DNA of 35,158 nt, taken from contig PCXB01000005.1 in NCBI GenBank assembly GCA_002787535.1, forward strand, positions 1-35,158, read 5' to 3'. This DNA is from Deltaproteobacteria bacterium CG11_big_fil_rev_8_21_14_0_20_45_16 (GTDB taxonomy: Bacteria; Bdellovibrionota; UBA2394). Positions 1,663 through 32,739 of the stretch are shown piece after piece. A program made the position numbers and the translations under genes. Below the pieces are notes generated by a model, which did no database searches, had not been told where the DNA came from, and was given only the letters and a program-made list of their open reading frames with translations. Every line of letters begins with the position of its first letter. Positions within the stretch are counted from its first letter, which is position 1.

Positions 1663-1758
1663 TTATGCACAATATTTGAAACCAAATGCTGTGGATAATA
1701 TAGTTATGCACATTATCCACAGGTTTATGCACAGGCTGTTATGCACAGCTGTGGATAA
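1663..1758. promoter_or_regulatory. Dense DnaA-box cluster in oriC (seven boxes)
   Basis: Seven perfect boxes sit in 96 bases. Plus-strand boxes are at 1663-1671, 1704-1712, 1713-1721, 1725-1733 and 1739-1747. Minus-strand boxes at 1690-1698 and 1750-1758 flank the tight group. The boxes at 1704 and 1713 abut with no gap. This is probably the core platform where DnaA assembles. Confidence 0.85.
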
Positions 1759-1942
1759 TTCAAAATTTCATCCACATGGCTTGTTCAAAAAGCTGTGAAT
1801 TTTGTGCAAGAAACCAATCACTTGTGTATAAAATTTTTGAACCGGGGTGTTTCCGTTTCATGCTTATGCACACAATTCACAGGCCAATTCTGAAAAATAT
1901 ATTTAAAATCAGATACTTATAAATCTATCAACAATTGCACAG

Positions 1943-1954
1943 CTACTACTACTA
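1943..1954. promoter_or_regulatory. Candidate DnaA-trio element
   Basis: The plus strand reads CTACTACTACTA, four perfect triplets that read 3'-GAT on the other strand, the form described for DnaA-trios in Bacillus subtilis. A degenerate box-like sequence ending in TGCACA (to 1941) abuts it, and an AT-rich run (1960-1980) follows. That order (box, trio, AT-rich DNA) is the published arrangement. The repeat is short, so chance cannot be excluded. Confidence 0.55.
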
Positions 1955-2065
1955 AGAGGAATAATTTTTTTTGAAAAATAGAACCCTCAAAGCAGGTGTG
2001 TATGTTGATGAATTAAAAACGCGCTAGGAATTTCTATTAAGAAACATTAGAAATCATTGAGAAAT

Positions 2066-2141
2066 GGGCCTGTAGCTCAGTTGGGAGAGCGCCACAATGG
2101 CATTGTGGAGGTCGTCGGTTCGACCCCGATCAGGTCCACCA
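2066..2141 (+). tRNA. tRNA-Ala (anticodon GGC)
   Basis: A full 76-base cloverleaf can be folded by hand. The acceptor arm GGGCCTG pairs with CAGGTCC and includes the G3:U70 pair that specifies alanine. The D arm is GCTC/GAGC, the anticodon stem CCACA/TGTGG encloses loop ATGGCAT, and the T arm carries TTCGA. The anticodon is GGC, reading GCC. The terminal CCA is encoded. It lies between oriC and dnaN on the plus strand. Confidence 0.97.
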
Positions 2142-2191
2142 TTTAACTGTTAATTTAGCTTGAGAAATGCTTTATTTGGGCGAGAGGAAGC

Positions 2192-3352
2192 ATGTCTAAA
2201 CAGGTTGCAGGGTTTGAAATGGATCGGGAGAGCTTTTTAAAAGCTCTTCAACGCGTTCAAAGCGTTGTTGATCGTAAGAACACGATTCCAATTCTTAGCC
2301 ACTTATTGATTGAAGCCGCTGATGATCGGGTTACTTTTTCAGCAACGGACCTTGAAGTAGGTATTCGTCTTCAACTGCCGGCCCATGTTATCAAAAGCGC
2401 TAAAGTAGCGGTTCCTGCCAAAAGCCTTTATGAAATTGTTAGAGAACTTCCATCCGAGAGTCTGGTTCGGTTTCAAATTTTTGATAACTTTTGGATCGAG
2501 CTTTTAGCTGGAAAAAGTGTTTTTAAGTTGGTCGGCCAAGATGCTGATGAATTTCCCCAACTTCCTAGAGTCGATACGAAGAAGTCGTTTAAGCTAACGA
2601 GTAGTAGATTTGCCGAAATGATCGATCATACTATTTTTGCCGTATCTAACGATCAGACTCGATATGATTTGAGCGGAGTCTATCTCGAGCAAATTAAGGC
2701 TAAAGCTAAAGTCTTTTTAAGAATGGTGGCGACGGACGGTCATCGACTTTCAATGATGGATCAGGAGCTTGAAGAGACAAAAGACCTACATCTTGATCAA
2801 GGCGTAATTTTACCTCGTAAAGGATTAACTGAATTACGGAGAATGCTCGGCGAAGAAGATAGTTTTTACTGTGCTTTAATGGAAAATAACGCTGTCTTTT
2901 GGACCTCATCAGAGCAAGTTCAATTATTTATGCGTTTATTGGACGGTGAGTTTCCTGATTACACGCCAGTAATTCCTCAAAATAACGATAAAAGGGTCGT
3001 CGTTCGGCGAGAATCTCTTTTGAATTCATTAAAGCGAATTAGTGTTTTATCGCTAGAGCATTCACGATCAGTGAAGTTTCTCTTTGAGGGCGGTAAACTT
3101 CAACTATCTTCAAGTAATCCAAAATTAGGTGAAGCTAAGGAAGATGTCGATATTGATTACGGTGGTGATAAAATCGAAATTGGCTTTAATGCTGGTTATT
3201 TTATCGACATTCTTAATGCTATGGACGATCAAGATAATATCGTAGTCGAAATGACCGATGTCTTATCGCCGAGTGTTGTTAAAGGTACCAAATTCGATGG
3301 TTCTTTAAATATCGTAATGCCCATGCAACTGGGCAGCGATGCTCAAGTTTAG
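2192..3352 (+). CDS. dnaN: DNA polymerase III subunit beta (sliding clamp)
   Basis: DnaN forms a ring dimer that tethers DNA polymerase III and other DNA-acting proteins to the template. The 386 residues keep the family pattern: an N-terminal segment with KALQRVQSVVDRKNTIPIL, three repeated clamp domains, a central ATDGHRLS motif near residue 180, and the C-terminal MPMQL that forms part of the protein-binding pocket (usually MPMRL). It is about 20 residues longer than the Escherichia coli protein, with extra residues before the first domain and six after MPMQL. The ATG follows a purine-rich GAGAGGA ribosome-binding site. recF follows after a short gap, so the two are probably co-transcribed. 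Confidence 0.97.
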   Translation: MSKQVAGFEMDRESFLKALQRVQSVVDRKNTIPILSHLLIEAADDRVTFSATDLEVGIRLQLPAHVIKSAKVAVPAKSLYEIVRELPSESLVRFQIFDNFWIELLAGKSVFKLVGQDADEFPQLPRVDTKKSFKLTSSRFAEMIDHTIFAVSNDQTRYDLSGVYLEQIKAKAKVFLRMVATDGHRLSMMDQELEETKDLHLDQGVILPRKGLTELRRMLGEEDSFYCALMENNAVFWTSSEQVQLFMRLLDGEFPDYTPVIPQNNDKRVVVRRESLLNSLKRISVLSLEHSRSVKFLFEGGKLQLSSSNPKLGEAKEDVDIDYGGDKIEIGFNAGYFIDILNAMDDQDNIVVEMTDVLSPSVVKGTKFDGSLNIVMPMQLGSDAQV

Positions 3353-3410
3353 TAGCCGATTCAGCCGATCGTATTGAGAGGATTTTCGTATTCTTGTATC
3401 AGCTGTCAAA

Positions 3411-4523
3411 TTGATTAACTTCCGGCGATTTTCTCGACTCGAAGTGAATGAATTTCATCCACAGCTGAATGTGATTGTGGGTAAGAATGCACAGGGAAAA
3501 ACCAGTATATTGGAGTCGCTATCTTTAGTGACTCAATTGGAAAGCTTTCGAAGTTCTGATGTATCTGAGTTGATTAAATATGGCGAAATTCAAGCTTCTT
3601 GTACGGTGGATTTGAATGCTCCGACAAAGAGCCGAGTTCTTATTGGATTAGAAAACAAGAAGAAGAGTATTCGAATTGACGAAACAAAAATTTCATCCAA
3701 GTCAAAATATAGTCTTTTAGGTACGAGCGTTACTTTTGTGCCTGATGATCTTTATCTTATTAAAGGCGGTCCAGAAGCGCGTCGTAAATTTTTTGTTCAG
3801 CTAGCGATCAATTTGGATCCTTCATCTGTGCAAATTTATCAACAGTATGAAAAGAATTTGAAACAGCGGAATAGAATTTTGAAAGGAATGAAGGAGGGAG
3901 ATCATCTTGGCGATCAATTGGAAATATGGACGGATCAATTTATAGGCGCAGCTGTGCAAGTTTATGAACAGAGGTTTAAAATTCTTGAAAGACTGAGAGA
4001 GGTCTTACCGAGTATTTATCAAAAATTATTCGATGTTTCGGAATCGATCGAGATTCTTCATGATCATGGTTTTGATGAAAACTTGCCAGATCGAGATTCC
4101 ATTGCGAGACGAATGAGTCGATTAAGAGGGGCTGAAACTGCGATTGGGTATTCTTTGGTGGGGCCTCATCGTGATGATTTTAAATTTAATCTGAATTCTT
4201 TAAATGCGCGACAATTTGCAAGTCAGGGACAGACGCGCAGTTTGGTGATTGCACTAAAAATTAGTCAATTGGAGCTAACAAGAGAGGACGCCTATTCAAG
4301 TCCTCTGTTATTGTTGGATGATATTGTTTCCGAATTGGATGAGACGAGAACCTTGGCGCTTGTAAGTTATTTAGCTGATTATGATGGCCAGTTGTTTGTT
4401 ACGACGGCAGAGTCTTCAAAATTGAAGACTCTGCACTCACAGTTCGCCAGTTTCAAACTGATCGACTTAACCGAAGATTCAAAGATTGTTCGTCGCTTAG
4501 ACGTTCGGGAGCTTTCAGTCTGA
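3411..4523 (+). CDS. recF: DNA replication and repair protein RecF
   Basis: RecF is an SMC-like ATPase that, with RecO and RecR, loads RecA at gaps and stalled forks. Walker A GKNAQGKTS is at 24-32, the ABC-type signature region includes SQGQTR in the C-terminal part, and Walker B LLLLDD is at about 299-304 followed by IVSELD. At 370 residues it is of normal length. The start given is a TTG, which places the conserved NFR at residue 3. The family usually has about eight residues before NFR. The reading frame stays open upstream to 3378, and an ATT at 3390 sits seven bases after GAGAGGA, so the true start may be that rare ATT. The 3' end overlaps the reverse-strand gene at 4515. Confidence 0.95.
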   Translation: MINFRRFSRLEVNEFHPQLNVIVGKNAQGKTSILESLSLVTQLESFRSSDVSELIKYGEIQASCTVDLNAPTKSRVLIGLENKKKSIRIDETKISSKSKYSLLGTSVTFVPDDLYLIKGGPEARRKFFVQLAINLDPSSVQIYQQYEKNLKQRNRILKGMKEGDHLGDQLEIWTDQFIGAAVQVYEQRFKILERLREVLPSIYQKLFDVSESIEILHDHGFDENLPDRDSIARRMSRLRGAETAIGYSLVGPHRDDFKFNLNSLNARQFASQGQTRSLVIALKISQLELTREDAYSSPLLLLDDIVSELDETRTLALVSYLADYDGQLFVTTAESSKLKTLHSQFASFKLIDLTEDSKIVRRLDVRELSV

Positions 4524-4841
4524 TCGAGTTCTATCGAAGGATCTATTACCGCAAAGCTTAACCCCCTCGCTATGGGCTAAGCCTAAGCCGCCATCATACT
4601 TAGGTGTTAATACAGCCAATCGAAAGCATTCGATGGTGAGCTCCGAATCGAGGCTTCCGGCGCATAGCTCCGTGGCCATGGATTGACCAATTTGTAGGCC
4701 ACCATCCCATTTATCGGCCGTCGCCATTTTGTGACACTGGATTGGTTCCAAGTTTATGGGCTTTGCAAATGCCGTCTCAGCTCCCAGAACAAGCGTGGCC
4801 AAAGCACATAAAACTACCGTGATTACTTCAGTATTCTTCAT
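4515..4841 (-). CDS. Small secreted protein with two cysteine/DGGL repeats, unknown function
   Basis: I do not recognise this 108-residue protein. Residues 1-26 look like a Sec signal peptide with cleavage near AFA-KP. The mature part is two copies of one unit: Cys36, DGGL at 46-49, Cys60, then Cys72, DGGL at 83-86, Cys97. Both copies run C-x(9)-DGGL or nearly so, followed by a small helix-like stretch and a Leu-Cys end, so each unit could be closed by a disulfide. The ATG follows AGGGAG, a good ribosome-binding site. The gene is transcribed away from gyrB and its last nine bases overlap the end of recF. Two intact repeats, the signal peptide and the ribosome-binding site argue that it is a real gene. 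An envelope or periplasmic location is inferred. Confidence 0.8.
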   Translation of the reverse strand: MKNTEVITVVLCALATLVLGAETAFAKPINLEPIQCHKMATADKWDGGLQIGQSMATELCAGSLDSELTIECFRLAVLTPKYDGGLGLAHSEGVKLCGNRSFDRTRSD

Positions 4842-4913
4842 CTCAATTCTCCCTGAACATTAGTTTCCCCATTGGGATCGGAATGGTCCAGAAATTCATT
4901 CTTAAAAGTAGGC

Positions 4914-4991: not shown

Positions 4992-7394
<2,403 letters not shown>

Positions 7395-22844: not shown

Positions 22845-23696
22845 ATGAGCTTTCTTCGTGCGGCGCGTCGCGCCGCAATCTTGGGGATAATTGTCGGACT
22901 TTTTTCGATTGTTTCAGTGTCGGCCTATCAATGGCAGGTTGAAGATTATTTGCAGAGCATTCGTGTTCCAAGAGCCTCTAAAGTAAACAGTCCGTTCATG
23001 TTTCTTGGTTTGCGGGCGGCCAAGGGTATCGAATTTTCGGACTCTGGGACGAATCAATATCAATCATTTATGGGGCGACTAGTATTGAGCGATTCGCTTC
23101 AAGATGGGGGAAATCGTCTTCGTCCTTATGAGGCGATAAGTAGTATTGATTTGGGAATCTTGGCACATGAAAGTTGGCACTCCTACCTTGATAACTACAT
23201 TATGCGAAAGAGCTCCTATGCTCGATTTAAAAAATGGATCACGAGTAGAGCGCGAAATTTGTTTTGGGATCTGCCTGAATCCAAACAATTGGCTGCGCTG
23301 GACGAAGCCTATGCTATTTACATTGGATCGATGGTCACAGCCTACCGAGGAATTCAAAGAGATATGGATCGACAATTGAAACAAGATTCTTGGGATTGTG
23401 GGAAAATCGAGTCATTGGCGGATAGATTTTGGAGTCTGGCATGGAATGAGCCCGTTTATGGATACTATTATCGCGATACGATTTCTGAATACTGGGAGGA
23501 CAAATTTACTGCTGTTATCAACTGGATTTCTGGCGAGAAAAGCGATCAAAATAGCGAAGGAATTTATTACGTCAAGCAAAGCATTACGGATATTGATAGA
23601 GATTGGATTGCGGAGAATGTTCTCAAAACCAAATTTTCTAGAGACTATCTAGAAACTTTCGGCAGCGAGCTTCGTCAACTGTCCTGTAGAGATTGA
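22845..23696 (+). CDS. Putative secreted zinc metallopeptidase (HExxH), unknown family
   Basis: I do not recognise the family. The first 28 residues are a signal peptide or membrane anchor: FLRAARRAA, then a hydrophobic stretch ending SVSA. Residues 108-112 are HESWH, an HExxH zinc-peptidase motif, preceded by the helix-like SIDLGILA. A candidate third ligand is Glu154 in LDEAYAIYIGS, 42 residues on, the spacing and context of gluzincins. The region between is rich in aromatic and basic residues. A conserved-looking tail (EYWEDKFTAVINW) follows. A strong GAGAGGGG ribosome-binding site supports the ATG. The gene stands alone between the namZ operon and the cbb3 cluster. Activity is inferred from the motif only. 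Confidence 0.8.
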   Translation: MSFLRAARRAAILGIIVGLFSIVSVSAYQWQVEDYLQSIRVPRASKVNSPFMFLGLRAAKGIEFSDSGTNQYQSFMGRLVLSDSLQDGGNRLRPYEAISSIDLGILAHESWHSYLDNYIMRKSSYARFKKWITSRARNLFWDLPESKQLAALDEAYAIYIGSMVTAYRGIQRDMDRQLKQDSWDCGKIESLADRFWSLAWNEPVYGYYYRDTISEYWEDKFTAVINWISGEKSDQNSEGIYYVKQSITDIDRDWIAENVLKTKFSRDYLETFGSELRQLSCRD

Positions 23697-23770: not shown

Positions 23771-23926
23771 ATGTCTGCTCTTTATATTACGATCATTGCA
23801 GCTCTTATTCTACTCATCATATTTTTAGGCTTGTTGGCCTGGGCGATTGTTTCGGGTCAGTGGGATGATCTTGAAACACCCGCTCATCGTATTCTATTGG
23901 AGGAATTGAATGAAAATCGAAAATAG
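23771..23926 (+). CDS. ccoS: Cbb3-type cytochrome oxidase maturation protein CcoS
   Basis: This 51-residue protein has one membrane helix (about 5-27) followed by SGQWDDLETPAHRILLEE, the hallmark of CcoS (typically SGQFDDLEGPAHRIL). CcoS is required to insert haem b and copper into the catalytic subunit of cbb3 oxidase in Rhodobacter. It is usually the last gene of ccoGHIS; here it is first in the cluster. Its 3' end overlaps the ccoNO start by 17 bases, so the two are translationally coupled. Confidence 0.92.
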   Translation: MSALYITIIAALILLIIFLGLLAWAIVSGQWDDLETPAHRILLEELNENRK

Positions 23927-26123
23927 CTCGGCGGCACTCGAAACTGTCAAATTCGATGATTGGATTGCTCGCGCTTTTTTATGGGCGACGATGATTTGGG
24001 GGCTGGTCGGAATGCTTGTCGGGTTGTTAATTGCGACGCAACTTATCGATTGGCGATTAAATTTTGACCTACCTTGGCTGACCTTTGGACGGCTCCGACC
24101 ACTTCACACGAACGCCGTAATTTTTGCTTTTGCCGCCAACTCGTTTTTTGCAGCTTGCTATTATTCGACCCAGCGATTGTTGAAAACACGAATGTATTCG
24201 GATCTAATGAGTCGGATTCATTTTTGGGGTTGGCAACTAATTATTGTCGCTGCGGCGATTAGTTTTCCGATCGGTTGGACGCAGGGGCGGGAGTACGCGG
24301 AATTAATTTGGCCCATTGATATGGCTGTAACGATCATATGGGTTATTTTTACAGTAAATTTTCTTCTTACTCTTTGGATAAGGCGCGAGAAGCATATCTA
24401 TGTAGCTATTTGGTTTTATATAGCATCGATCTTGGCCATAGCGATGTTGCATGTCGTAAATAATATTCAGCTGCCGGTGTCATGGACGCTCTCGTATTCC
24501 GTTTATGCTGGTGCTCAAGATGCGCTTGTTCAGTGGTGGTATGGCCATAATGCCGTGGGATTTCTCCTCACGACACCTTTTTTGGGAATGATGTATTACT
24601 TTTTACCGAAAGCTGCGGACCGCCCAATTTTCTCCTATAGACTTTCCATTATTCATTTCTGGGCTCTTGTCTTTATATATATCTGGGCTGGACCCCATCA
24701 CCTGTATTACAGCGCTTTACCGGAGTGGCTACAATCCTTGGGAATGGTTTTTAGTATTATGCTTTGGGCTCCGTCTTGGGGTGGCATGCTCAATGGACTT
24801 TATACCTTGCGGGGAGCTTGGCATAAAGTTCGTGAGGAACCCATTCTTAAATTTTTTGTAGCAGCCGTTACGGCTTACGGAATGTCGACTTTTGAAGGTC
24901 CTCTTTTGTCCATTAAAGCTGTTAATAAGATTTCGCATTTTACAGACTGGACCATCGCGCACGTTCATGTGGGCGCCCTCGGTTGGGTTGGTTTCATGAC
25001 CTTTGGGATGATCTATTATCTTATACCAAAACTATGGAAGAGGCCGATTTATAGTCGTTCGCTCGCAAATGCTCACTTTTGGATCGGCTTGATAGGCATT
25101 TTACTTTACGCGGTACCGCTGTGGATCGCGGGTGTTACTCAGGCCCTGATGTGGTTGGCAATGGATGATCAAGGCGCGCTAGTTTACCCGGATTTTATGG
25201 AAACGGTGAAAAGCATTATGCCGATGTATTATCTACGGGCAATCGGCGGAAGTTTGTTTATCATCGGTGTGCTGATCATGCTTTATAACTTTCTTCGAAG
25301 CATCGCGGGCGTAAAGTGCTCGGAACTCGTCGATACTGAAATTAAGGCGGCACATTTTTCTACTGTTAAACCCGAAGATCAGATTTCTGAACTTTTCGAT
25401 AAAGAGGGTAAGCCGAAGGCGTCATTTTGGAAACAAGTCCACCGCCTGATTGAGGGGTGGCCTCTTGTGTTTTCGGCGATAGCCTTAATGGCGTTAATGG
25501 TCGGTGGTCTTGTTCAAATCGTACCGATGATTCTTGTTCAAGCTTCAGCTCCCAAGGATATTATCGTTCGGCCCTATACTGGCTTGGAACTCTTGGGCCG
25601 TGACATTTATATTCGAGAAGGCTGCTACAACTGCCACTCGCAACAGGTGCGGCCGATTCTAGAAGAAGCTAAACGTTATGGTCCGGCCTCGAAGGCTTAC
25701 GAGTATATGTATGATCATCCCTTTCAGTGGGGTTCGAAACGTACGGGCCCTGATTTGCATCGAGTGGGTGGAAAGTACCCGGACCTTTGGCATTATCGAC
25801 ATTTGGAGGATCCTCGATCGGTATCAGCTAATTCGTTGATGCCCCCGTATCCTTGGCTTTTGACTGCAAATTTAGATATTTCGAATCTTGAAACCCGATT
25901 GAAGGTTCTAAAAAAGTTAGGAGTTCCTTATCGCGATCAAGACATTGAGTTTGCAAAGGAGGATTTGGAGAAGCAGGCCTTGGAATTTTCAGGGCGATTG
26001 AACAAAGATGGCGGCGTTAAGAATTCCGAGAAGAAAGAAATTGTTGCGTTGATAGTGTATCTTCAGCGGCTTGGAAAAGACGCGCAATCTGATTCCGTAT
26101 TAAAATTGGGAGAAAGCCAATGA
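23910..26123 (+). CDS. ccoNO: Fused cbb3-type cytochrome c oxidase subunits I and II (CcoNO)
   Basis: Residues about 1-480 are CcoN, the haem-copper catalytic subunit with some twelve membrane helices: RLRPLHTNAV (a haem-ligand histidine, 66), WWYGHNAVGF, GPHHLYYSALPEW and HFTDWTIAHVHVGALGW hold the haem and copper ligands. After a linker (about 485-510) and one membrane helix, the CcoO part carries one c-type haem site CYNCH at 572-576 followed by SQQVRPI, and a likely methionine ligand in NSLMPPYPWL. Normally N and O are separate genes; the fusion is also known from Bacteroidetes. The enzyme reduces oxygen with very high affinity and pumps protons. GGAGG lies seven bases or so before the ATG. 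Confidence 0.95.
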   Translation: MKIENSSAALETVKFDDWIARAFLWATMIWGLVGMLVGLLIATQLIDWRLNFDLPWLTFGRLRPLHTNAVIFAFAANSFFAACYYSTQRLLKTRMYSDLMSRIHFWGWQLIIVAAAISFPIGWTQGREYAELIWPIDMAVTIIWVIFTVNFLLTLWIRREKHIYVAIWFYIASILAIAMLHVVNNIQLPVSWTLSYSVYAGAQDALVQWWYGHNAVGFLLTTPFLGMMYYFLPKAADRPIFSYRLSIIHFWALVFIYIWAGPHHLYYSALPEWLQSLGMVFSIMLWAPSWGGMLNGLYTLRGAWHKVREEPILKFFVAAVTAYGMSTFEGPLLSIKAVNKISHFTDWTIAHVHVGALGWVGFMTFGMIYYLIPKLWKRPIYSRSLANAHFWIGLIGILLYAVPLWIAGVTQALMWLAMDDQGALVYPDFMETVKSIMPMYYLRAIGGSLFIIGVLIMLYNFLRSIAGVKCSELVDTEIKAAHFSTVKPEDQISELFDKEGKPKASFWKQVHRLIEGWPLVFSAIALMALMVGGLVQIVPMILVQASAPKDIIVRPYTGLELLGRDIYIREGCYNCHSQQVRPILEEAKRYGPASKAYEYMYDHPFQWGSKRTGPDLHRVGGKYPDLWHYRHLEDPRSVSANSLMPPYPWLLTANLDISNLETRLKVLKKLGVPYRDQDIEFAKEDLEKQALEFSGRLNKDGGVKNSEKKEIVALIVYLQRLGKDAQSDSVLKLGESQ

Positions 26124-26293
26124 GAGATCTTTTAGGGTCAATTGCGCACCCGGCTTTTGCTGGATTTTCCCTTATTTTGCTACTCGTTGTTTTCTTAGGA
26201 ATCCTAGGTTGGGTGTTTTGGGGGCTCAATCGGGAAGACATATCAAAGCGATCTAACATTCCCTTTGAAGGGGATCGAAGGAGTCGGGCATGA
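26120..26293 (+). CDS. ccoQ: CcoQ-like small subunit of cbb3 oxidase
   Basis: The 57 residues have one membrane helix (about 14-36) ending GWVFWGLNRED, with a polar tail, as in CcoQ, which stabilises the cbb3 complex. It overlaps the ccoNO stop in ATGA and the ccoP start in ATGA-like fashion (four bases), so all three are translationally coupled. Identification is by position, size and topology; CcoQ is poorly conserved. Confidence 0.82.
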   Translation: MRDLLGSIAHPAFAGFSLILLLVVFLGILGWVFWGLNREDISKRSNIPFEGDRRSRA

Positions 26294-26868
26294 ATGAATC
26301 AGATGATGATAAGTTGATGAGGGATCACGAGTACGACGGTATTCAAGAGTATGATAACAATCTTCCACGCTGGTGGGTGTATAAGTTTTTAATCACGATC
26401 GCATTTGCCGTTGTCTATATGTATTGGATGCAATTTAGTGGAAGCGGTAAAAATATCTGGGATGAATATATGACGGATCGGACGGCTTACGAGAGAGATG
26501 AAATGTTGCGGGCGGCCAAAAATATGAGACCGTCGGAAGAAGAGTTTTTAGCCTTGGCCGCGGATCCATTGGTGCTTTCAAGTGGTGAGCTTGTGTTCAA
26601 GGAGCGCTGTGCAAGTTGTCATGGATTAAAAGGAGAGGGCATTGTGGGCCCAAATTTAACGGATCATTACTGGATACATGGTGGAAGCTTGATGGAGATT
26701 GCGAATGTGGTGGAGAAGGGGGTGCCGGAAAAAGGAATGGTACCTTGGAAAGGCATTCTCAAACCGGACGAAATTTATGCCGTTATTGCTTACGTTCATG
26801 AACTAAATAAAAAAGGTGAAGTCGAAGGGAAGGCTGCCGAGGGCGAATTTGTATCCGGAGGAAAATAA
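26290..26868 (+). CDS. ccoP: Cbb3 oxidase subunit III (CcoP), monoheme form
   Basis: The N terminus matches the CcoP domain: HEYDGIQEYDNNLPRWWVYKF, then one membrane helix (about 30-50). The periplasmic part has a single c-type haem site CASCH at 107-111, followed by GLKGEG and VGPNLTD, with a likely axial Met150 in KGMVPWKG. Proteobacterial CcoP normally has two haems and about 300 residues; this one has 192 and one. It passes electrons from soluble cytochrome c to CcoO. It is coupled to ccoQ upstream, and ccoG follows after a few bases. Confidence 0.93.
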   Translation: MNESDDDKLMRDHEYDGIQEYDNNLPRWWVYKFLITIAFAVVYMYWMQFSGSGKNIWDEYMTDRTAYERDEMLRAAKNMRPSEEEFLALAADPLVLSSGELVFKERCASCHGLKGEGIVGPNLTDHYWIHGGSLMEIANVVEKGVPEKGMVPWKGILKPDEIYAVIAYVHELNKKGEVEGKAAEGEFVSGGK

Positions 26869-26871
26869 GTG

Positions 26872-28248
26872 ATGGCAAGAACGGTCGACTTATCGACTGT
26901 CGAAGCTTCTGGAAAGCGAAAATGGATCTATCCAATAGTTTCAAGGGGCCTTTGGTATCGTAGGCGGAAATGGGCCGCCTACGCACTAATCATTTGGCTA
27001 GTTGGCGTACCGTGGACTCAATGGGACGGTCGGCAAACTCTTCTCTTCGATTTTTATCATCGTAAATTTCAAGTTTTTGGGTGGACGTTTTTTGCCAATG
27101 AAAGCTCGGTGTTTCTTGGTTTTGTATTATTTTTTATAGCGTCGATTTTGATATTAACAGCCTTGTTTGGAAGAGTGTTTTGCGGATGGGCGTGTCCGCA
27201 AACTGTTTTTATGGAATTTATTTTTAGGCCCATAGAGCAGTGGCTTGAGGGAACGGGCTTGTCTCAAAAGAGATGGAATCAACAAGAGTATTCCAAAAAA
27301 CTGCCTCGAAAATTGGTCAAGTATTTTCTATTTTTTTCAATATCAATGGTTCTTTCAAACACTTTTATAGCCTATCTTTTTGGCTCACATCACCTAATAA
27401 AAATGATTCAAGAGGGACCACTGAGTAACGCCAGCATATTTTTTGGAATGCTATTTGTCGCTGTTCTTATTAATTTTCAATTTGGGTGGTTTCGAGAGCA
27501 AGTTTGCGCCTTTGTGTGTCCCTATGGACGTCTCCAATCCATTCTGTTGGATCGGCACTCCGTGATTGTCGCTTATGATGCAAAGCGCGGGGAACCCCGA
27601 GGAAAACTTGGACAGACTTCGGGAGATTGTATCGATTGCCATAAGTGCGTACAAGTTTGTCCAACGGGAATTGATATACGTGCGGGGCTTCAATTGGAAT
27701 GTATTCATTGCACTCAGTGTATCGATGTCTGTGACGAGGTGATGACCAAAATCGGTAAGCCCATCGGATTGATTGCTTATAATACGCAAGCGGCCATGGC
27801 TGAAAAACCAAAAGTTATTTTCCGACCACGCCTGCTTATTTATGGGCTAGTTTTTTTAATTGGAGGCTTCTTAATGGGGGCTTTTGGACTTGGGCGGAAA
27901 TCTATCGACGCCAGCCTTCATCGTGAGGCGGGAAGAAATCTTTTTGAGAAAGTGGGACAGACTGAGTTTGTTAACAATTTCAAAATAAATATTCAAAATC
28001 GTTTGGACGAGTCTCAGAAACTGTCGTGGCAATTGATTGAACCTCCTTCGGCCGAGCTTATTTTGCCGGAGGGTGAAATTGAATTGAAACCCGAGGAAAA
28101 GAGAAGCATACAACTGCTCATAAAGATGAAATCAGAGGACTTTCATTCGGAGGTCGGTTCGATTCCTTTAAAGATTAAAATCAGTGTGGATGCCGATAAT
28201 CAAGTAGATTTGAACTCGAAAATCTTTGGCTATGAATCTGATGATTGA
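26872..28248 (+). CDS. ccoG: Cytochrome c oxidase accessory protein CcoG (FixG/RdxA)
   Basis: CcoG is a membrane-bound iron-sulfur protein needed for cbb3 assembly, thought to reduce Cu(II) for insertion. It has about five membrane helices, a NapH/PolyFerredoxin-like FCGWACPQTVFMEF, CAFVCPYGRLQS, then two 4Fe-4S motifs: CIDCHKCVQVCP and CIHCTQCIDVC. The final 110 residues form an Ig-like FixG C-terminal domain. The start is ambiguous: GTG at 26869 stands seven bases after GGAGG and ATG at 26872 ten bases after; I give the ATG. It lies in the usual place after ccoP. Confidence 0.95.
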   Translation: MARTVDLSTVEASGKRKWIYPIVSRGLWYRRRKWAAYALIIWLVGVPWTQWDGRQTLLFDFYHRKFQVFGWTFFANESSVFLGFVLFFIASILILTALFGRVFCGWACPQTVFMEFIFRPIEQWLEGTGLSQKRWNQQEYSKKLPRKLVKYFLFFSISMVLSNTFIAYLFGSHHLIKMIQEGPLSNASIFFGMLFVAVLINFQFGWFREQVCAFVCPYGRLQSILLDRHSVIVAYDAKRGEPRGKLGQTSGDCIDCHKCVQVCPTGIDIRAGLQLECIHCTQCIDVCDEVMTKIGKPIGLIAYNTQAAMAEKPKVIFRPRLLIYGLVFLIGGFLMGAFGLGRKSIDASLHREAGRNLFEKVGQTEFVNNFKINIQNRLDESQKLSWQLIEPPSAELILPEGEIELKPEEKRSIQLLIKMKSEDFHSEVGSIPLKIKISVDADNQVDLNSKIFGYESDD

Positions 28249-28942
28249 GCCGGCCTTTTTGCAAATCCTGAGCCTTGGATTAATTTGGGTAAGTTTTCAC
28301 TGCGGTCCAATGTGTGGACCTATCGTGCAGGGACTTCGCTTGGATGATGGGGGAAGGTGGGGGTGCTTAAGAGGATTGCTTTTCTATCAACTCGGACGCG
28401 CACTGCCTTATGCCATCTTTGGAGCTGTGGCTGGAGCCTTGGGTTCAAGTGAGAAGTTTGGCTTCTCTCAACTCGGGTTCATAATACTCTTTGTCCTTTG
28501 TTTCATGCTGATTTTTAAACTTGGATGGATCAAGAGGAAGCCAAAAAGCTCCAAATGGTCTGTGATGATGTCGAGACTTCTTGGCCTCTTTCAGAGATAT
28601 GAATTGGGAAATCGCCGCTCATTTATGTTAGGGATCTTATTTTCCCTGTTGCCCTGCATGTTAGTAGGTTGGGCTTTGAGTGTGGCCGCAACGACGCAAT
28701 CTATCTGGAAAGGCGCGATCTGCATGTTATTACTTTTGCTCATGACGAGCTTGCCGCTAGGATTGATTGTTTGGGGATCCAAGAAGCTTTGGAGGGTGTT
28801 AGGACGAAAATCGGAAATCTTATCCCTTGCTATATCTATCGTGTGGACGACTTTGATGTTAGCTGCGGCTCGAGGCTGGATAGAACATTTGCACTATCAC
28901 TTTGAAATCTTAGACAAACCTCTGACATTGATGTTTTGGTAG
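28232..28942 (+). CDS. SafE/UreH-type membrane protein, probably copper-linked cbb3 assembly factor
   Basis: A membrane protein of about 236 residues with six helices. The first helix holds FHCGPMCGP, matching the HCxGMCG motif of the UreH_2/SafE family (cytochrome c biogenesis-like membrane region), and LLPCMLVGWAL repeats the pattern in the second half. Such genes often sit between ccoG and ccoI, and a role in copper handling for the oxidase is inferred; no substrate is proved. No ccoH is visible here, the place it usually has. Possible starts are TTG 28226, ATG 28232 and ATG 28241, all overlapping the ccoG end. Confidence 0.85.
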   Translation: MNLMIEPAFLQILSLGLIWVSFHCGPMCGPIVQGLRLDDGGRWGCLRGLLFYQLGRALPYAIFGAVAGALGSSEKFGFSQLGFIILFVLCFMLIFKLGWIKRKPKSSKWSVMMSRLLGLFQRYELGNRRSFMLGILFSLLPCMLVGWALSVAATTQSIWKGAICMLLLLLMTSLPLGLIVWGSKKLWRVLGRKSEILSLAISIVWTTLMLAAARGWIEHLHYHFEILDKPLTLMFW

Positions 28943-28944
28943 TT

Positions 28945-31254
28945 ATGGCTGTAATTCCGGCTCATCATTCCTGCAAGCATTGTGGTCTAGACTCCGAAGA
29001 AAGCGATTTTTGTTGCTTTGGCTGTCGGACGGCCTATGAAATCATTCAAGCCAGCAGGCTCGGGGATTTTTACAAGAAGAATGAGCCTTCCAAAAAGCCA
29101 GTCGATAGCATCGCAAGCGAAAGTCTCGAGGCCTTGGATCAGGATGACTTCCTTCAATCGCAGTGTCGCAGGGTGAATGGGGAATGGGTGGGGCGATTTG
29201 CAATCGAAGGCTTGCATTGTTCAGCTTGTATTTGGCTATTGGAAAATCTTCCGGCGATGGAGGCCAATTGTCTGAATGCTAGGGTTAATTTCGGAGCCGG
29301 CGAAATTGAATTGCGTTTTAAAGATCATCTTTCTCTGATCGCACATAAGATTAATCAACTGGGCTATTGTTTGCGTCCAACTGACCATGAAGATCTGAGA
29401 TCGAGCTTGAAAACTAGAGAGTTGTTAAGACTCGGTGTAGCGGGAGCCCTTGCAGCGGCTCTCATGCATATTGGGTTACTATTCTTGGCGGCCTGGAACA
29501 ATCCGATGTCGCATGGAGATGCCAAAGCTTTGGGGTTTATTTCGGCGGCATTGATGATTCCAATTTTTTTCTACGCCGCACAGCCTTTTTTTATATCGAG
29601 TCTTAGGTTTTTGAAAATTGGTCGATTGCATCGAGATATTCTTGTGGTTGCAGCTATTGCGTTCGGGTTCTCGTTTAGTTTGGCACAAACTATTCGTGGG
29701 GGCATCGACGTTTACTACGACTCGATTGCCATGTTGGTCTTTCTCCTTCTAGCGGGCCGATATCTGATTGGATTTCAACATAAAAAACTTCGGCAATCAT
29801 TAGATCAGAAAGTCCAACGCTACAATTTCTCGAAGCAAGCTTTTGAATGGGTAATGGGTCGAAGCCTTAAGGTCGGGGATCGGTTGTTGATTAGGAAAAA
29901 TGAAACGCTGGCGTGTGATGCGAAACTCTTGAGCGCCGAAAGCTGGTTGGAGACAAGCGTTGTAACTGGAGAGTCAGTTCCACGAAGATATCTAAAGGAT
30001 GCTGAGCTCCCTGTGTTGGCGGAGAATTTGGGAGGAGACATCGAAGCTGTCTGTACCAAAACCTGGAGCGAATCTTGGATTATGAAATCGGCTGGTGAGT
30101 TTCAAACGAAGGAGGTGGAGACCCCCAGTCGTTGGATGGATCTTTTTGTCGTGCTTGTCGTGCTGATAGCCATCTCAGCGTGGTTTTGGGGAGGCCAAGA
30201 TTGGATTTCAAAATCGATGGCCATTTTGATTGCCGCCTGTCCTTGTGCTTTAGGTCTTTCAAGACCCCTTGTGTTGGCGAGTTTTTGGCGCCAGGCTCTT
30301 AATCATCATTATTTAATTAAGAACTTGGATCGATGTTTGAACTGGCGGAATCTTCGTGGAATTGCGTTCGATAAAACAGGGACTCTTAGCGAAGCGAATC
30401 TTCAGCTCGGGGAATCTAAATTTGAGGGAGAGGCTAAGCTTACTGATTATGCCAATATTATTTATGGCATGGCTTCAACCAGCGCGCACCCGGTTTCCAG
30501 GGCGATAGCTTTTCATATTTATGATAACTGCAAATTTGATCCGCTTGATCTTCATGTCGTAGATCAAGCAGGTAATGGTTTAACTTGCGAGTACCTTGGT
30601 GATTCCTATTTTTTAGGCAGAAATGGAAACCGAGGATTGAAAAATTTAGATTTGATGTCCTGCCAGTTCTTCAAAAATGACCGATGTCTTGGAAGCTTTT
30701 ATTTTGAAGACCGAGCTGAGTGTACGGCGCTCCAGGCTTTAGAACAATTGCGGGCCCAGGGACAGGCATTGTCCTTACTTTCGGGGGATCATTTTGAGTC
30801 GGTAAAATCTTTTGAGAAAGAGCTTGGGTTTGAATTTGATCACGTACTTGCTGATCAAAAACCAGGGGACAAAATAAACTATATCTTGAGCCAACCAAAT
30901 TGCGCTTTTGTTGGTGATGGCCTTAACGATGTCGGGGCACTTAAAGTGGCCTATGCGAGTATGGGGTTTCAGACGAGTCGGGAGGCCAATTTTGAATCCG
31001 CAGATATTTATCTGATTCGTAAGGATCTTAGAATGGTCCCCAATTTTATCGAAGGCGCTCGCCGAGCCTATAGTCGAATTAAGATAAATTATGGAATTTC
31101 TCTACTCTACAATGTGGCAAGTATTGTCTTGATAGCTTCCGGCCTGGCTGGACCCGTAATCTGCGCGATCTTTATGCCACTCAGTAGTTTGAGTGTTGGA
31201 TTAATGTCTCGTTATTGGAAGGCTTTTGCGGGAACTACGAAGCCTGCTGCATAG
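28945..31254 (+). CDS. ccoI: Copper-transporting P1B-type ATPase CcoI (FixI)
   Basis: CcoI exports copper to the periplasm for cbb3 oxidase. From the ATG at 28945 the order is: a cysteine-rich N-terminal segment HSCKHCG with a following CCFGC as in FixI-type ATPases, a heavy-metal domain with GLHCSACIW near residue 91, six to eight membrane helices, an actuator domain with VVTGES, the copper-selective CPC at 432-434, the phosphorylation site DKTGT with Asp476, a nucleotide-binding HP motif (SAHPV), and the hinge GDGLNDV. This N terminus separates CcoI from general CopA. A TTG at 28936 is an alternative start. The gene begins two bases after its membrane-protein neighbour. Confidence 0.95.
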   Translation: MAVIPAHHSCKHCGLDSEESDFCCFGCRTAYEIIQASRLGDFYKKNEPSKKPVDSIASESLEALDQDDFLQSQCRRVNGEWVGRFAIEGLHCSACIWLLENLPAMEANCLNARVNFGAGEIELRFKDHLSLIAHKINQLGYCLRPTDHEDLRSSLKTRELLRLGVAGALAAALMHIGLLFLAAWNNPMSHGDAKALGFISAALMIPIFFYAAQPFFISSLRFLKIGRLHRDILVVAAIAFGFSFSLAQTIRGGIDVYYDSIAMLVFLLLAGRYLIGFQHKKLRQSLDQKVQRYNFSKQAFEWVMGRSLKVGDRLLIRKNETLACDAKLLSAESWLETSVVTGESVPRRYLKDAELPVLAENLGGDIEAVCTKTWSESWIMKSAGEFQTKEVETPSRWMDLFVVLVVLIAISAWFWGGQDWISKSMAILIAACPCALGLSRPLVLASFWRQALNHHYLIKNLDRCLNWRNLRGIAFDKTGTLSEANLQLGESKFEGEAKLTDYANIIYGMASTSAHPVSRAIAFHIYDNCKFDPLDLHVVDQAGNGLTCEYLGDSYFLGRNGNRGLKNLDLMSCQFFKNDRCLGSFYFEDRAECTALQALEQLRAQGQALSLLSGDHFESVKSFEKELGFEFDHVLADQKPGDKINYILSQPNCAFVGDGLNDVGALKVAYASMGFQTSREANFESADIYLIRKDLRMVPNFIEGARRAYSRIKINYGISLLYNVASIVLIASGLAGPVICAIFMPLSSLSVGLMSRYWKAFAGTTKPAA

Positions 31255-31344
31255 TGAACCTCGAATTATATGTATTTCAGGCTTTTGAAGGCCCTGCTGG
31301 CTGCACGGGTCTTGCATCAGATTACTCTGGCTTTGGAGGTGCGA

Positions 31345-32739
31345 ATGCAGAGCGCGATTCACTTTTCATTTGGTGTTCTTCGTCTTACTCGTCGAATAGA
31401 TTTAATTTTAGGCTCGTTTATTATTCTCGGATCGTTCTTGATTTCCGCCTGTGGGAATAGTCCTGATAAAAATGGAGACGGAAGCTTTGATCCGAATCTT
31501 TTTGGGAATGGTTACTACTTCCCTGGCGGGATAAATGGCAATGATTTCAAAAATAAAGTTAACGAATTGGACGGAAAGATCGCGTCAGGCCAACTTGGCG
31601 GAACGGGAAACTATACCTACGATCCAGAAACACAGAACACCACAGGGGGCTTGGGCAATTCACCCATAGATGGCAAAACTCCGGCTGCAACGAGTGTCGG
31701 AGATCATGATTTCATTCAGAACTTCACCGACTTTCAGAGCATTTTTGGGAACCTCAATAATGCAGCTGGCGTTGTAAAAATGGTTACGACTTATGAATCG
31801 AGTAGCGGATCACAAATTGAGCGTATCAACACGATAATTATGGATAAGGAATTTGGACACGGCGAGCTTGATGCCACACTAAACCTTGGTGGCCCAAGAG
31901 AAGGCTTTAGTTATCCACCAGGCGCCAGCCCAGAGTTTTTTTGTTCCTTGGTACATATCGATGCGGAGAATCGAAAGATCCTGAAAACCAATGAACTACC
32001 TTTAAGCTTTGACCCAGCGACCATGGAAGTCGGAGATCCCGTCTGTCCGATAGAAAGGAAGCTATTTAATTTGGCCGAAGGTGAGCATGGTAAGATACGT
32101 TTAGAGATTGAAACCGAACCCCTTCCGAAATTTGAGAGCACCCGAAGTACGATTAAGAGTCTGGGGCGTTATGGTGATTTTACTCCCGGACCTTCCAACA
32201 TCATTTTTTATGAGAGCAAAGTAGAGAGTCGAAACGCGGCCAATGAAATCTCATATGTTATTAACAGCTACTTCTTCATTTTGGACGTCCTTCAAATGGA
32301 AGTGCCGGGCCAACTCTCTCCCTATCAATATAAAGGAAAGTTTGGAGATTCAGAATACTATATGATTTTGCCAAGCACTCCCTTCAAGCAGATCAAGACC
32401 CAGGCAGCTCTGCTTGGTGTCGCCGTAGGCGCTAATGAGGCCTACGGAGTTGCCATTACAAGTCAGGAAGAACTAGAATTTATAAAAGGAATCATTCCCG
32501 GAAATCGAGTGTGGATGGGGCTCGATGATATTGCCTCGGAGGGAAGCTTCAAGCTGCATAGTGAGGAAGTCTTTAGCTTTTCGAATTGGGCCAGCGGTGA
32601 ACCAAACAACGATGGAAATGAGGACTGCGCCCATTTAAATTATAGTCGGGGAGGGGACTGGAACGATACGGAATGTTACCATGCCTATCCTGTTCTGATC
32701 GAAGTTAAAGTAGATTCCGGAAGCCTTCAACTTCCCTAA
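31345..32739 (+). CDS. Lipoprotein with C-terminal C-type lectin domain
   Basis: GGAGG (31335-31339) five bases before the ATG at 31345 fixes the start; an upstream ATG at 31270 lacks this. A signal with TRRIDLILGS ends in the lipobox ISAC with cysteine 36. A Gly/Asn/Asp-rich linker (about 40-110) and a region without recognised domain follow. The last 130 residues are a C-type lectin-like domain: VWMGLDDIASEGSF, NWASGEPNNDGNEDC with EPN at 419-421, and DWNDTECY with WND at 439-441. EPN plus WND is the calcium-site pattern of mannose-type lectins. The cysteines at 428 and 444 could form the usual internal disulfide. A surface-exposed carbohydrate binder, perhaps for attachment, is inferred. 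Its stop overlaps the convergent glpK stop. Confidence 0.88.
   Translation: MQSAIHFSFGVLRLTRRIDLILGSFIILGSFLISACGNSPDKNGDGSFDPNLFGNGYYFPGGINGNDFKNKVNELDGKIASGQLGGTGNYTYDPETQNTTGGLGNSPIDGKTPAATSVGDHDFIQNFTDFQSIFGNLNNAAGVVKMVTTYESSSGSQIERINTIIMDKEFGHGELDATLNLGGPREGFSYPPGASPEFFCSLVHIDAENRKILKTNELPLSFDPATMEVGDPVCPIERKLFNLAEGEHGKIRLEIETEPLPKFESTRSTIKSLGRYGDFTPGPSNIIFYESKVESRNAANEISYVINSYFFILDVLQMEVPGQLSPYQYKGKFGDSEYYMILPSTPFKQIKTQAALLGVAVGANEAYGVAITSQEELEFIKGIIPGNRVWMGLDDIASEGSFKLHSEEVFSFSNWASGEPNNDGNEDCAHLNYSRGGDWNDTECYHAYPVLIEVKVDSGSLQLP

Follow-up and report, generated by a model that had tools for sequence, protein, structure and literature searches.

A predicted lipoprotein with a C-terminal EPN-type C-type lectin domain in a genome of the Bdellovibrionota

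The described systems closest to the protein reported here are the EPN-type C-type lectins of animals, among them mannose-binding protein, CRD2 of Endo180/MRC2 and DC-SIGN. Domains with an EPN motif also take GlcNAc, glucose or fucose, and C-type lectin folds often bind protein rather than sugar, protein-binding members being common. According to PMC5379193, mannose goes with the EPN motif and galactose with QPD. A C-type lectin fold is also found at the tip of the MAT fibre protein Bd2740 of Bdellovibrio bacteriovorus, where calcium has been dispensed with (PMC10769870). The gene described here lies in a stretch of DNA of 35,158 nucleotides (the window), and its product combines a bacterial lipoprotein N-terminus with a lectin domain that keeps a full set of calcium ligands. 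On the basis of the sequence and a structural model, the reading that we favour is that this is probably an outer-membrane lipoprotein which would act as a tethered, Ca2+-dependent glycan binder in attachment or glycan capture.

The gene, its N-terminus and the stalk

The open reading frame, read directly from the window, has the coordinates reported for it in the initial annotation. A second in-frame ATG is found upstream, at 31270; the ATG at 31345 was favoured as the start because GGAGG stands 5 nt before it. The main features of the gene and its product are as follows:

31335..31339, + strand: Shine-Dalgarno sequence GGAGG, spacing of 5 to ATG 31345 (read directly)
31345..32739, + strand: lipoprotein with C-terminal C-type lectin domain, 464 aa (ORF, profile match, sequence)
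31345..31449, + strand: signal peptide, residues 1-35, with basic n-region RLTRR and hydrophobic core, ending LISA (sequence and hydropathy, by eye)
31450..31452, + strand: lipobox cysteine C36, in LISA/C-G-N (sequence)
31453..31689, + strand: Gly/Asn/Asp-rich linker, residues 37-115 (composition, model)
31690..32340, + strand: orphan middle region, residues 116-332, with Cys200 and Cys234 (searches, model)
32341..32712, + strand: C-type lectin domain, residues 333-456 (Pfam, phmmer, model, Foldseek)

The n-region, hydrophobic core and lipobox cysteine of a bacterial lipoprotein are all present, and were read by eye from the sequence as RLTRR-IDLILGSFIILGSFLISA followed directly by the cysteine. 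The lipidation signal, the Gly/Asn linker and the C-terminal lectin head that had been proposed from the sequence were recovered from the LISA/C36 site, from composition and the low pLDDT of the linker, and from the Pfam match, respectively. The residue at position +2 of the lipobox is Gly, which by the E. coli rule argues solely against retention in the inner membrane, surface exposure being a separate matter.

In the AlphaFold2 model the linker has a pLDDT mostly below 50, except for one short predicted helix at residues 65-80. The middle region is predicted to be mostly beta, with low confidence, and reached a pLDDT of 35 when modelled alone. Residues 1-365 matched no Pfam family, and searches of 59 relatives, 369 genomes of the phylum, genome_contigs and PHROGs found no relative of them; plasmid and phage collections likewise gave matches to the lectin end only. 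No fibre shaft was detected among these residues, the lipobox being present and the model of the middle region being of low confidence.

The lectin domain and its predicted calcium site

The Pfam family Lectin_C (PF00059) matches residues 368-450 with E = 1.3e-11 and a score of 45.6 bits, where the cut-off is 22.6. A phmmer search of the PDB gave 1.3e-17 to Endo180/MRC2, with further matches to the mannose receptor, CD23, DC-SIGN and surfactant protein D. Structure prediction of the lectin end, proposed in the initial annotation as a check, returned a C-type lectin fold with pLDDT of about 86-96 over residues 337-456 and with the ligands of the Ca2+ site kept. Comparison of this model by Foldseek gave 286 matches below 0.001, and the 50 of these 286 that were listed are C-type lectin entries; single-domain structures matched at a TM (target) of about 0.68-0.87, including MBP-C bound to Man-a13-Man (1kza; 0.87, rmsd 1.8 A) and Endo180 CRD2 with a fucoside (9qy1; 0.85, 1.5 A). 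The C-terminal C-type lectin domain is real, far beyond chance. Among the best 60 solved chains matching the domain profile there was no bacterial protein.

The following positions make up the putative calcium and sugar site and its disulphide:

32527..32541, + strand: D395...E399, aligned with auxiliary Ca2+ site ligands, D-x3-E (alignment)
32599..32607, + strand: E419-P420-N421, sugar/Ca2+ site 2 motif (sequence)
32620..32628, + strand: E426-D427-C428, the third site-2 ligand, auxiliary-site Asp and Cys C2 (alignment)
32659..32667, + strand: W439-N440-D441, with site-2 ligands N440 and D441 (sequence)
32674..32676, + strand: C444, partner of C428 in the C2-C3 disulphide (alignment)

EPN and WND lie at 419-421 and 439-441, exactly where they had been placed. 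In rat MBP-A, the site 2 ligands of which we take to be E185, N187, E193, N205 and D206, these residues align with E419, N421, E426, N440 and D441 of the window protein, and all five are kept. Alignment to the same protein points to D395, E399, N422 and D427 as a putative auxiliary site. Across 27 bacterial relatives the columns of the site are the most conserved, with E89, P90, E96, W109 and D111 invariant and N91 and N110 kept in at least 90%. At the level of motifs the domain is thus of the mannose (EPN) type, having both EPN and WND and all the ligands of the primary Ca2+ site; the assignment made from the sequence holds to that extent.

These ligands also bear on whether the fold may have been kept for binding protein, or nothing at all, like intimin D3 or the Bd2740 tip. 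Protein-binding members of the fold are familiar, and the calcium-free tip in Bdellovibrio bacteriovorus (PMC10769870) offers a precedent; however, Bd2740 has lost the Ca2+-binding motif that is complete in the window domain, and we consider such a loss of sugar binding improbable here.

The protein has cysteines at positions 36, 200, 234, 428 and 444. The two that had been noted as placed for the usual bond, C428 and C444, occupy the conserved columns of the C2-C3 disulphide, but the classical form has a second bond as well. Neither C1 nor C4 is kept, so that no C1-C4 bond can form and C2-C3 is the single classical disulphide open to the domain. This loss may affect stability. Many bacterial homologues also do without C1-C4, so the pair is not a requirement of the domain family, and a subset of the bacterial relatives shares the loss of C1 and C4, with (V/I)-(V/I/L)-E at the end where others have (I/V)-C-E.

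Distribution and genomic setting

A single convincing Lectin_C domain is present in the window genome, and 11 of the 369 genomes of Bdellovibrionota carry the domain; the lectin gene has no relative in the four genomes of the family. One scan of genome_contigs with two short motifs (GEP and WND) gave 72 loci, a seeding which favours the EPN/WND type and from which the share of other types is not deducible. These loci include Clostridia, Planctomycetes, Myxococcota, Bacteroidota, Cyanobacteria, Patescibacteria and Verrucomicrobia as well as one archaeal genome, and a few related domains are in phage-like contigs and phages. A strict pattern found the EPN...WND pair in 47 of 78 domains, an undercount, since others were missed by their spacing. 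With loci across so many phyla the domain is therefore, judging by sequence matches, thinly but very widely spread among bacteria, and the window protein is an ordinary example of already widespread bacterial C-type lectin domain proteins. The suggestion that such domains are uncommon in bacteria is thus right only in part: it suits the phylum, where few genomes carry one, and is weak for bacteria at large.

The closest bacterial match is 50% identical over 76 aa (a rumen Clostridia MAG), followed by 48% over 52 aa (a Deltaproteobacteria MAG) and 45% over 66 aa (Bdellovibrionaceae). Identity to two MRC2 domains is 27 and 36% over the aligned core, so the best bacterial relatives are as close as, or closer than, the two MRC2 domains compared. 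A recent transfer of the domain from an animal might be suspected, since the relatives of known structure that match it best come from animals, but the body of solved structures is itself weighted towards animals. The identities, together with a composition that shows no clear departure from that of the neighbouring DNA, disfavour this origin, which we find scarcely credible.

A lipoprotein-like N-terminus with a lectin domain recurs in the phylum on other stalks (L042, L044, L047, L020, L023, L025). Where L-A-G-C would be usual, predicted lipoproteins of the phylum were also seen repeatedly to carry a lipobox-like FQNC (L042, L044, L150); counted at DNA level in the window genome, the FQNC-type lipobox occurs 15 times against 13 in the control, which is about equal. 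In one genus of Bdellovibrionota (L045:9140-10837, L046:3365-5080, L049:5718-8639) an unusual fusion was observed, in which a membrane acyltransferase (Acyl_transf_3) carries at its C-terminus a Lectin_C domain whose motif is EPN or QPD; one copy has an N-terminal 7TMR-DISM sensor.

The lectin gene is preceded by an oxidase cluster:

23910..31254, + strand: cbb3 oxidase cluster (ccoNO, ccoP, ccoG, DsbD/CcoH-like, ccoI P-type ATPase), upstream of the lectin gene

In the family relatives L039 and L040 the gene order is NamZ, a 22845-type gene, glpK and dnaJ, and in the window the 22845-type gene is separated from glpK by the oxidase cluster together with the lectin gene. Since these two genes are adjacent in the relatives, the oxidase/lectin segment is lineage-specific; by parsimony it would have been inserted in the lineage of the window, loss in the relatives being the alternative. 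Of the four family relatives, three lack an oxidase match. The gene at 22845-23696 of the window encodes a 283-aa protein with no Pfam match, which is ~33% conserved and holds the same place in the family relatives. CcoN and CcoO form one fused protein in the window (COX1 + FixO, 737 aa), a form common in the phylum, and in the related genome G002 (L146:8312-10655) the ORF for the ccoI P-type ATPase is split into two overlapping frames, possibly through a frameshift or an assembly error.

The lectin gene starts 90 bp after ccoI on the same strand and no terminator-like site was found between them, so read-through is possible. This arrangement, within a single lineage-specific segment, would suit an accessory of the cbb3 oxidase. 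However, G002 has its cco genes in an identical order on a contig from which the lectin gene is absent, and the cco clusters of four other genomes of the phylum also lack it; nor is it plausible that assembling an oxidase would call for a lectin. Co-function with the oxidase was rejected on this comparison of clusters and is highly improbable, and the link between the two looks positional.

Proposed role and comparison with known systems

As a tethered glycan binder, the protein would be held in the outer membrane by its lipid anchor, with the flexible linker and the beta-rich region carrying the C-type lectin head. Ca2+ would be bound at the EPN...E...WND site, and the ion would in turn coordinate a pair of adjacent equatorial hydroxyls on a sugar resembling mannose, GlcNAc, glucose or fucose; the tethered protein would then work in attachment or glycan capture. 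An adhesive role of this kind presupposes that the protein faces outwards, and sequence does not reveal how a lipoprotein is oriented. In the outer membrane, the majority of lipoproteins are turned inward by default. The same lectin could thus face the periplasm and bind glycans of the cell's own envelope, such as peptidoglycan or periplasmic glucans, in envelope organisation. There is no gene for a surface-export partner beside the lectin gene, and a gene for the muramidase NamZ is located 9 kb upstream, though NamZ is also present in relatives that lack the lectin. The linker, on the other hand, is long and flexible, the head is of a type usual in external glycan binding, and the patchy presence of the gene, seen from its absence in the other family genomes, is ill-suited to a core envelope role. 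We regard the inward-facing lipoprotein as unlikely beside the surface-tethered glycan binder.

A further step, that the putative surface lectin recognises other cells through an EPN site that truly depends on Ca2+, held out on a stalk of a fold not otherwise known, is proposed only tentatively, and we would sooner doubt it than rely on it. A complete EPN-type site in a bacterium, with no bacterial chain among the best solved matches, and the orphan stalk make the protein of mild interest. Its head, a small and well-predicted single domain with a complete Ca2+ site, is a convenient test case for EPN-type sugar binding in bacteria, and could show whether such lectins help cells to attach in a phylum noted for its predators.

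A diversity-generating retroelement (DGR) was observed on another contig of the window genome (C41, locus L152), with its target at 1704-4853, variable repeat at 4718-4843, reverse transcriptase at 6140-7180 and template repeat at 7191-7316. The reverse transcriptase carries the motif IPIGNLTSQ and has relatives of 67% identity in G003 and G002. The template and variable repeats, each 126 bp long, show 18 mismatches, of which 16 fall on an A of the template. The target protein, of 1049 aa, has an FGE-sulfatase domain (C-type lectin superfold) at its C-terminus. The lectin gene was rejected as a target, as only chance matches of 15-16 bp were found between the window and the reverse transcriptase region, none of them within the gene. 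DGR variable proteins with a C-type lectin fold share the superfamily fold with the window domain, whereas the window gene has no match to the template repeat and lies on a different contig.

The window domain has the same fold as the animal EPN-type lectins, with EPN and WND, the primary-site Ca2+ ligands and the C2-C3 disulphide in common; it differs in the missing C1-C4 disulphide, in an insertion of ~7 residues after the first helix and in its bacterial lipoprotein context. Nearer in architecture are L044/L081 (isolate KLAP46) and L042 (G036), which like the window protein have a lipobox-like N-terminal cysteine and a C-terminal Lectin_C domain. The stalk of L044 consists of two Ig-like domains (Pfam Ig_3) whereas that of the window protein is an unrelated orphan region, and the domains of L044 and L042 keep the C1 and C4 that are lost here, with EPS/WND and KPD/WAD, respectively, in place of EPN/WND. 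Bd2740, from the same phylum, also uses a C-type lectin fold as a C-terminal recognition head. Bd2740 forms the trimeric tip of a fibre and lacks Ca2+ ligands, whereas the window lipoprotein keeps them all, and a surface lectin that recognised cells, if that is what this protein proves to be, would be the calcium-dependent counterpart of the calcium-free Bdellovibrio fibre tip.
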